DNA of 64,000 bases from Pempheris klunzingeri (lineage: Eukaryota > Chordata > Actinopteri > Acropomatiformes > Pempheridae): NCBI RefSeq assembly GCF_042242105.1, contig NC_092019.1, positions 14,386,328 through 14,450,327 on the forward strand, written 5' to 3'. The translations under genes were made by a program, and so were the position numbers. This document shows positions 82 to 51,521 of the stretch, piece after piece. The first letter of the stretch is position 1; each line of letters begins with the position of its first letter. The notes beneath the pieces are model-generated. The model was not told where the DNA came from. It made no database searches and saw nothing but the letters and a program-made list of their open reading frames with translations.

Positions 82-3000
82 TCAAAGTGCAAAGTAAGGT
101 CTGTGGAGAGAATAGCCTGCTTCAGTAGTTGCATCATGTTGCTATACTCTTCAGAGCAGAGGTTTGCAAAGATATTGTGACCCTGTCAGAAAAAAACACA
201 CACACAAGCAGGCAAGGATGAGTAATAGTGGCTAAAATGTCTCCTTATAGCCAATGCATTGGTAAAGTCATCGCTCACTGTCAAATTAAGCTCCCATTAT
301 CAATGCTAATTAGCAATGGGTATAGACTTTCTCTGTCCTCTGTTAAAAGAAATCAATACAGAACACAGTTCCTAATGATCAAACTGATCTACACCTGAGA
401 CAAAGCAGCCTCACAGCGTCACCAGTGGTCACTGCTGCCGCCTACTAGCCGCCCAGAGCAGATGGCCTTTTGGTAGCTCAGTAGCTAAGACACATAATGC
501 TGTATCTGTTTCTAAAGAGGGATCAGACACGTAGTCATGGGTGATCAGGTGTTTCTGATTAGGTTTTATGGTATTTGGATTCGTGCTGTTTTCTATGTGT
601 TTTCTTGTTCATTTGGGTGTATTTGGCCCATCAAAGAACAGATGTTGCAAACTCACTGAAGGCTGCAGTATGTGGTATTTAGCCATAATTGTACAAAAAC
701 CTTACATACTAATTAAATACAATATGCTTGAATGTCTGTGGTTGCACAAAAGGAAAACGTATCCAATACAGCCACTGTAATAAATCTCTTACTTGAGCAT
801 GAGGATCATATGACAAATATTGATCTGACCTCACTTTGTAGGATCATGACTGCATGGTTGAAGTGATGATGCTCCAGAGTGGCTGACGTCCCATAGAGCA
901 GAGCCAGAGCAGACCCCGTCCTGCAGGAAAAACAGAGCAGTGACATTTAATCTTATCTTATACCTGTTTATCATCTAATTTTAGGCCTGGGTCACCTACT
1001 TGGCTTGAAATGCATTGTTGGTGCCTCGGTGGTCCAAGTCATGACACAGACAGCCGACCATCAGTGCCAGTATCTCTGCCTCTGACAGGACATCCTGGAA
1101 ACTGGCTGTCTGCCGAAATTAAAGCAGATATATTCTTACCCATCCACCTAGCGGAGTAAACCACTACATTTATTCACCATTTATTCTATTTAGTTATACT
1201 GTGTAACCTATTAACTTTTGTAGGATAGGATAGGACAGGACAGGATAGGATAGAATATAGCATAGGAACATTTTTGATCAGGAGGTTATTTGATCCTTTT
1301 TTATTGATGTTTGTGAGTTGTCAGAATAAGTAATCACCCTGGAAAGTTAATAATTCTCTGTGAGGCTTTTATCCAAATATTCCTCCTTTGAATTTTCTCT
1401 TAATGATGCTTCTCCTGTGATGTTTCCTCCTAATGATGTTTTGTTCAGTGGCTGATTGTTGATTAGTTTAATGAAAAGCCCACTGAGACTTCATGACAGG
1501 CTTTAAAAATAACCATGAAAATGTGTTATCCTCATTGAAGTGTCCAAGTTTAGACTGTTTGCTTTTGGTGGGATCTTGCCTTTATTCTATCAGACAGTTT
1601 GACAGTATAGAGTAAAAGCGATTAGAGTGATTGAACGGTGCAGCATGCAACATAAGACTCTTTCATGAAAGAAATTGGAGATACACATCTTAGAAAGATG
1701 GGTAATATTTATTTTAAATGTGCCTATTGAGCACAGGCCACCAGAGCAACTTCACAGTGTCTAACCCCTTAACATCCGGTTCTGCCTTTGATTCCAAGTA
1801 GCCTAAAAGTTGGAAAAATCATCTTATTCCAAACTGTCTTTCAGTATCATATATACCCGATATGTACTGATGATGTTCACACTGAATGAAATATTCAAAC
1901 CCAAGGCTTCATGTTTTTTAGGGCTGCAGTATCTCAGCCAAAAGAAATACTCTAAAAGTCTTAAGCATCAATTTAACACACATTCAGACCGACACATTTG
2001 GTATGTTTGGTAACTTAAAAATAAGTTCTGTGGGTTGGAACAATGCTTGTACTGACAGACCCGGGACAGTAGGCCGATGGAAGGCAATGCACCTGACAAG
2101 ATTGATCTCGAAACTTACTGTGATCATAATGAACATGCACTGCGACACATTGAAGGCGTGCCTCCAGTTGTGATACGCCACAGTCCGATAGTTCTTCCTC
2201 ACGGTCAGAAGCCAGCGGCACAAAACCTACAAGAAGACAGACACACAGCACAGGTGATATACATGCAGAGCGTACACACATGTTATAAGACAGAATCCAG
2301 GGCCTCACCTCGTAGTCAATTTTAAACTTTTGGACTACACCAAGTTCCAGAAACATCCGGAGTGACGCGGTGATCATGGCGTCATTGTCCAAAGCGAAGT
2401 CGTTGAAGTGAAACTCATCGATGCCTAACTCACTGCTCAGGGGGATCTTGGCTGCCTTAGGGGGAGAGGACAGAGCTGTCAATCACACAGTGGCAGCACG
2501 GGAGGAAGCAAAGCATTAAAACACACTGCAGACAGTTTTCAAATTGCACTTCACCATCAACCACTCACAGGCATCAGATTCCATACATTTCAGAAAGTTG
2601 GTATAGTGATAATGCGCACATATAAATGCTGTTTTCCTGATCTTCCTCCCTGAGGATTACCTTGAGTCTGTCAACTTCCACCTTGGAGCAGGTAGCATGG
2701 TAGGACAACATCTGGAAAAAATGAAAACGCAAAACACTGAGATTTAGAAAACGTATCCTGAGAGTGATTTAATTCTAATGAGCTGAATAAGATAACACCG
2801 GCTCTGGAAAAGACACCCATTTGTTCCAAGAATTTTGATGTGGTCTACATTTCCCACTTATCTTGTTACATAATCAGGATCAAAGAAAGTGAATCTCTGC
2901 TTTTAGAACCATTTTGTTGCTGTATTTTGGGTCTCTTGACAGAAAAAAATAATCCATCAAGTGTTTAAAGAAACAGCAAAGATTATATTACAGAAATAGA

Positions 3001-51300: not shown

Positions 51301-51521
51301 GTGTATCTGGGAAGGGAGAGATGCCTCTGAGCAGTGCTGGCCTTGCTGCGCTGACAGACGACGTGTTTGAGAAGACAGAACATCTGTTTGCCTCCTCTAA
51401 TGTGTCCCTGAAGAGAGTCGAGGACACGGTGAAGACGGAAGTGAAGCACCAGCCGGGTTACCTTCCTCTGGTCCTGTGTATCGCTGTCAGAGGTCTTGCC
51501 TCATTGGCCCACTGTGTTTGA
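48311..51521 (+). CDS. gsdme: Gasdermin E (DFNA5), pore-forming cell-death effector
   Basis: After protease cleavage of its linker, the N-terminal domain of gasdermin E inserts into membranes and forms pores (pyroptosis). Nine coding exons: 48311-48515, 48632-48824, 49161-49335, 49439-49559, 49814-49927, 50187-50314, 50421-50598, 51097-51170, 51294-51521, in frame for 471 residues (human 496). The start MFATATRNFVEEVD aligns with human MFAKATRNF and has a purine at -3. The pore-forming domain is about 1-231 and the repressor domain about 270-471. The linker exon 49814-49927 contains FEVD at residues 243-246, a caspase-type recognition site. A Cys-Cys pair at 384-385 matches the palmitoylated pair of human GSDME. 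The C-terminus (LFASSNVSLKRVEDTVK) aligns well with human. It lies tail to tail with pals2. The gene looks intact. Whether it is the a or b fish copy cannot be told from this window. Confidence 0.95.
49690..49800. repeat. Small inverted-repeat fragment abutting gsdme exon 49814-49927
   Basis: TTTCAGTCCCTAGACCTTC (about 49738) and, 30 bases on, AAGGTCGAGGGACTGAA form an imperfect inverted pair. The motif resembles a dispersed fish repeat. It ends about 15 bases before the acceptor of the linker exon. Confidence 0.5.

Follow-up and report, generated by a model that had tools for sequence, protein, structure and literature searches.

The human chromosomal regions 2q31 and 7p15 share the paralogous pairs DFNB59/DFNA5, OSBPL6/OSBPL3, CYCT/CYCS, NFE2L2/NFE2L3, HNRNPA3/HNRNPA2B1 and HOX (PMC3196546), and GSDME and PJVK have been attributed to the duplication of a multigene segment that included OSBPL3/6 and HOX (PMC8742441). 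Families syntenic with Hox also take in OSBPL, with members on human chromosomes 2, 7 and 17, and some duplication topologies are uncertain (PMC2566581). In its accessible part, PMC3196546 names PDE11A on the HOXD side only, describes Cyct as adjoining Pde11a in mammals and cites PMC2622764 and PMC2566581 for the Hox paralogon. A word search of these sources returned none of OSBPL, DFNA5, PDE11 or CYCS in PMC2622764, OSBPL and MPP but no DFNA5 in PMC2566581, and 0 occurrences of PDE11 in either PMC8742441 or PMC2566581. In the available portions of two further texts, PDE11A serves only as an outgroup (PMC4906994), or OSBPL and titin are covered with no PDE11 named (PMC12198301); a stickleback phosphodiesterase paper (PMC2653465) contains no PDE11. 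Among the matches listed in our literature searches, which left supplements and most subscription journals outside their scope, there was no HOXA-side partner of PDE11. No paper was found on a duplicated zebrafish PDE11 (pde11al), and pde11b matched a steroidogenesis review.

We analysed a window of 64,000 nucleotides (C8:14,386,328-14,450,327; NC_092019.1) from the 646 Mb genome of Pempheris klunzingeri. The window reads pde11(-), spmip4(+), osbpl3(+), gsdme(+), followed by a pals2-like gene (-); BLAST segments, Pfam and PDB matches confirm the order and strands of the first four genes as given in a preliminary description of this DNA. We take this order to match that of human 7p15, except that the human region has no PDE11 and the fish has no CYCS there; a search for a CYCS relic in the window found none at E 0.05. 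The block and its HOXA/HOXD relation are alike in the fish and in the human 7p15/2q31 pairs (GSDME/PJVK, OSBPL3/6 and CYCS/CYCT) as set out in the available parts of PMC3196546, PMC8742441 and PMC2566581; the fish, however, has a second PDE11, which appears to lie on the HOXA side.

A human PDE11A sequence not taken from a database record, used for all comparisons, matched the window in 15 tblastn segments on the minus strand (8831 to 81), and five further segments were found in the adjoining 20 kb, reaching about C8:14,384,173. The pde11 frame starts with an ATG at 8843 and the exons have splice-like edges; exon edges of the fish proteins were set by eye. Position 82, at which the preliminary description began, is the edge of the last in-window exon; the gene (81 to 8843 in the window) continues leftward. 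All 20 segments, cut at BLAST breakpoints, are free of stop codons. The joined protein, which includes the five segments from outside the window, matched Pfam PDEase_I (1.8e-86) and GAF (2.9e-40) and, like human PDE11A encoded at 2q31.2, possesses tandem GAF domains (two stretches) together with a PDE catalytic domain. Its identity to this human PDE11A sequence was 654/856 (76%), compared with 321/688 to PDE5A, and it retains the HNWRHAFN stretch and one 11-residue stretch of the human protein. In the PDB, PDE5 was the best match, followed by PDE6, PDE2 and PDE10, with no PDE11 chain among the best 60 of 157. Judged by its domains, the product would be expected to work as a dual-GAF cyclic nucleotide phosphodiesterase, and genome databases may well list the gene as pde11a-like. 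The exon reading FFECVLSGEFSW has diverged, with 46% identity to human PDE11A compared with 70% for a second fish copy on chromosome C10. One intron (window about 4928-5181) contains a long (CA)n-type simple repeat that reads HTHTHT in several frames.

The remaining genes were identified by domain and structure matches. Two spmip4 exons (12933-13124 and 13372-13545, plus strand) matched PF15093. A large frame at 14217-15323 has no Pfam match and was assigned to the gene as a later exon purely from its position, giving a gene span of 12933 to 15323(+). A search of the genome with PF15093 (2 matches among 3 candidates) found no SPMIP4 locus other than that on C8. The osbpl3 gene (30932 to 44628, plus strand) was mapped from 30932 by exon-by-exon similarity to a copy on chromosome C16, with earlier 5' exons outside the mapped span. 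Its oxysterol-binding domain (Pfam Oxysterol_BP, 1.2e-116; exons at 39721-43763) had ORP3 as its best PDB match (1.2e-154, compared with 4.5e-72 for ORP1), in a comparison that did not extend to human OSBPL6 or OSBPL7. Within the osbpl3 region, the minus strand at 35339-35833 carries part of a Tc1/Sleeping Beauty-type transposase (HTH_SB, HTH_Tnp_Tc3_2), and a related 346-residue open frame is present on C24 (L018:2616-3653). The gsdme gene (48311 to 51521, plus strand; Pfam Gasdermin, 5.3e-19) closes with a stop codon at 51519-51521, where the preliminary description ended. The best PDB matches of its first coding exon were a GSDME/GSDMD chimera (5e-16) and GSDME alone (6.2e-16), compared with 4.3e-7 for GSDMD. 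Beyond that end, and tail to tail with gsdme, is a MAGUK gene (53719 to 59427, minus strand) with SH3, PDZ and L27 matches and a Guanylate_kin match below cut-off; we take it to be pals2/mpp6, which presumably has the same convergent arrangement with GSDME in human.

The Pfam model of the Hox13 N terminus matched C8 at 14,305,413(+), and also C16, C11 and C17 (4 matches among 6 candidates scored genome-wide), with no match on C10. The Hox9 model matched C8 at 14,323,525(+) and C10 at 17,781,735(+), together with C16, C12, C11 and C17 (6 matches among 7 candidates). C8 reads hoxa13(+), hoxa9(+), pde11(-) at 14.384-14.395M, spmip4(+), osbpl3(+) and gsdme(+), a distance of 80 kb separating hoxa13 and the window. 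Along the plus strand the Hox13-type gene comes before the Hox9-type one, so that the front end of the cluster faces the window. The homeodomain motif WFQNR/WYQNR was absent from the window, from the 20 kb to its left and from the C16, C24 and C10 stretches examined; hoxa1, if kept, must therefore lie further left. From the neighbouring genes, and not from Hox trees, we infer that C8 and C16 carry HOXA clusters and C10 and C12 HOXD clusters. The window pde11 would then sit in the HOXA paralogon, whereas human PDE11A sits in the HOXD paralogon, and on this basis the window gene is most likely a HOXA-side ohnolog derived from the early vertebrate duplications.

A genome search with the window PDE11 protein, in which scoring covered 62 of the 101 first-look candidates, found two PDE11 genes, one on C8 and one on C10. 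The 56 matched stretches comprised 13 on C8, 13 on C10 (17.961-17.991M, minus strand) and 30 at no more than 56% identity. C10 reads Hox9-type(+) at 17.782M, pde11a(-), whose first exon is at 17,990,831, cytochrome c(-) at 17.993M and an OSBPL gene (+) at 18.029-18.034M, which is called OSBPL6-like by position. The pde11a gene on the HOXD side extends over about 36 kb (C10:17.955-17.991M), compared with about 11 kb for the copy on the HOXA side (window 81-8843 and a further 2 kb). The cytochrome c gene has two exons and lies 2 kb from the first exon of pde11a on the same strand, whereas human CYCS is, we assume, on the strand of OSBPL3, so that one gene would have flipped.

The two loci agree in the order and strand of hox(+), pde11(-) and osbpl(+) and in the side of the HOX cluster on which the genes lie, and the distance from PDE11 to the first oxysterol-binding-domain exon is 31 and 38 kb at the two loci. 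By simple arithmetic, the odds are about 1.5e-4 that a randomly placed PDE11 would be head-to-head with any of five OSBPL3/6/7-like genes and no more than 40 kb upstream of it; both PDE11 genes found are so placed. Given their shared order, the HOXA- and HOXD-side rows most likely both descend from one ancient block. A search for cytochrome c (6 stretches among 8 candidates) located genes on C10, C12 and C16, of which the HOXA-side one is on C16 only; with SPMIP4 on C8 only, this distribution fits a single ancestral block that suffered different losses on each side. The suggestion that this locus preserves an ancestral PDE11-OSBPL-gasdermin triple on the HOXA side is thus supported by the Hox13/Hox9 linkage of C8 and by the matching PDE11-OSBPL pair beside the Hox9-type gene of C10.

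The Gasdermin model identified three loci in the genome, in the window, on C16 and on C24 (7 matched stretches among 12 candidates). The C16 gasdermin adjoins a second OSBPL3-type gene, so that C8 and C16 each hold one GSDME-type gene together with one of OSBPL3 type, in line with the teleost gsdmea/gsdmeb pair; the ancestral order, however, is kept by C8 only. The C16 copies of osbpl3 and gsdme (15.410-15.470M) flank the Hox cluster at its hoxa13 end, with gsdme inverted, which indicates that the region does rearrange; between the two copies sits a frame whose CLASP_N match is weak and below cut-off. A bZIP frame and an LRR frame, which we take to be CREB5-like and TRIL-like respectively, lie to the left of this pair. 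The first exon of the C24 gasdermin is less GSDME-like than that of the window (4.8e-10 against 5e-16), and its neighbours in the 100 kb examined include a PWP2-like gene (1.9e-22) and collagen repeats with a VWC domain, presumably col5a2. In the accessible text of PMC8742441, bony-fish pjvk sits beside pwp2h and col5a2b, and the C24 gene is pjvk at this published site. Nearby, at C24:5.7266M, is a frame with a HAD-hydrolase Pfam match that by eye resembles a heavy-metal P-type ATPase. Gasdermin matches were confined to C8, C16 and C24, and pjvk was not found on C10. The HOXD-side gasdermin would thus have departed from its original position in P. klunzingeri, whose genome shows the full triple on the HOXA side only. 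That GSDME and PJVK are positional ohnologs, as the preliminary description proposed, is borne out but already published (available parts of PMC3196546 and PMC8742441); the new part is the HOXA-side PDE11.

Trees of the oxysterol-binding domain grouped C8 with C16 (91.9/89) and C17 with C20 (100/100), as would be expected of teleost pairs. Human OSBPL3 fell, with little support, outside the fish sequences (80.3/52) rather than beside C8 and C16, and C10 joined C17 and C20 (92.8/60); with a short domain and one distant outgroup, this tree leaves the older splits unsettled. For PDE11, the trees favour a split that precedes the divergence of fish and tetrapods (UFBoot 80-82), with the alternative not rejected (AU p 0.19-0.30). 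Among the PDE11 proteins, identities were 745/872 for human and C10, 654/856 for human and C8, and 668/848 for C8 and C10. Segment by segment, human PDE11A was nearer to C10 in 18 of 20, nearer to C8 in one and tied in one. The best tree joined human with C10 and placed the window copy outside (UFBoot 82; aLRT/UFBoot 93.3/80 in a second run), and informative sites with PDE5 as outgroup numbered 15 for (human, C10), 9 for (C8, C10) and 4 for (human, C8). The tree joining human with C8 was rejected in all five AU runs (p 0.007-0.024).

The window gene could instead have arisen at teleost age by duplication of pde11a on the HOXD side, followed by translocation to a site beside osbpl3 and by faster evolution. 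The 9 sites joining C8 and C10, set against 15 for (human, C10), lean towards such a history to a degree, and the corresponding teleost-sister tree was not rejected by the AU test (p 0.24; 0.19, 0.30, 0.29 and 0.25 under four models with 686 gap-free sites); moreover, pjvk shows that genes of the block can move in fish. Relative to the distant outgroup PDE5, however, the window and C10 lineages each accumulated 21 changes with no sign of acceleration, whereas a teleost-sister relationship would need 107 against 24. The binomial probability is 3e-6 undiluted and 0.019 under a guessed dilution, as chance matches to so distant a sole outgroup dilute the 21:21 count; we therefore regard the relative-rate result as support, not proof. 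It is position that decides. A teleost duplicate of the HOXD gene would be expected on the other HOXD chromosome, yet the window copy lies by HOXA, and among the 62 scored candidates there was no PDE11 on C12 near hox9 (13.37M) or cytochrome c (14.42M); PDE-like matches on C12, at 1.55M and 5.52M, were at no more than 50% identity. A translocated copy would also have to land by chance beside OSBPL3, on its HOX-facing side and head-to-head (about 1.5e-4). A recent teleost translocation, which the preliminary description had named as contrary to its reading, is accordingly disfavoured by position and trees together, though not rejected by the trees alone (AU p 0.19-0.30), and we consider it unlikely. 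It is far less credible still that PDE11 joined OSBPL independently on both sides before or around the duplications, the shared order being coincidence. The pattern is indeed restricted to two Hox-bearing chromosomes, with no PDE11 match near the OSBPL genes of C16, C17 or C20 among the 62 scored candidates; against this, C8 and C10 are alike in gene order, in strand and in the side of the HOX cluster that the genes occupy. No PDE11 remnants were detected at E 0.01 in the 100 kb surrounding the gasdermin of C16 or that of C24.

We hold with considerable confidence that a Hox-linked block was duplicated to the HOXA and HOXD sides in the early vertebrate genome duplications (2R). On this reading, PDE11A and the window pde11 are 2R ohnologs, and GSDME and PJVK are positional ohnologs. 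The block before 2R would have read HOX - PDE11 - SPMIP4/cytochrome c - OSBPL - gasdermin, and its copies may then have lost different genes. On the HOXA side in this fish, C8 would have kept pde11, spmip4, osbpl3 and gsdme, with cytochrome c surviving only on the second HOXA chromosome, C16; on the HOXD side, C10 would have kept pde11a, cytochrome c and the OSBPL6-like gene, its gasdermin pjvk having probably moved to C24. Human 7p15 has, we presume, lost its copy of PDE11, which would place a loss of the HOXA-side gene in tetrapods.

It is quite probable, in our estimation, that the early vertebrate duplications left the HOXA side with a PDE11 of its own, beside SPMIP4 in the cytochrome c block, and that this hidden ohnolog ('PDE11B') has since disappeared from human 7p15. 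PDE11A, CYCT and SPMIP4 are known for testis or sperm roles, and the block from which they descend may have been a germ-cell gene neighbourhood whose parts were divided between the two copies. This germ-cell idea is speculation, prompted by expression patterns, by the name of the SPMIP4 family and by the accessible part of PMC3196546. PDE11 and the SPMIP4/cytochrome c position would join the families that trace the HOXA/HOXD duplication, and this one genome strengthens the published view that GSDME and PJVK were split by block duplication. The finding further suggests that a phosphodiesterase treated as single-copy in mammals once had a second vertebrate ohnolog, and that fish models of PDE11A carry two copies whose origin probably lies far earlier than that of a simple teleost pair.
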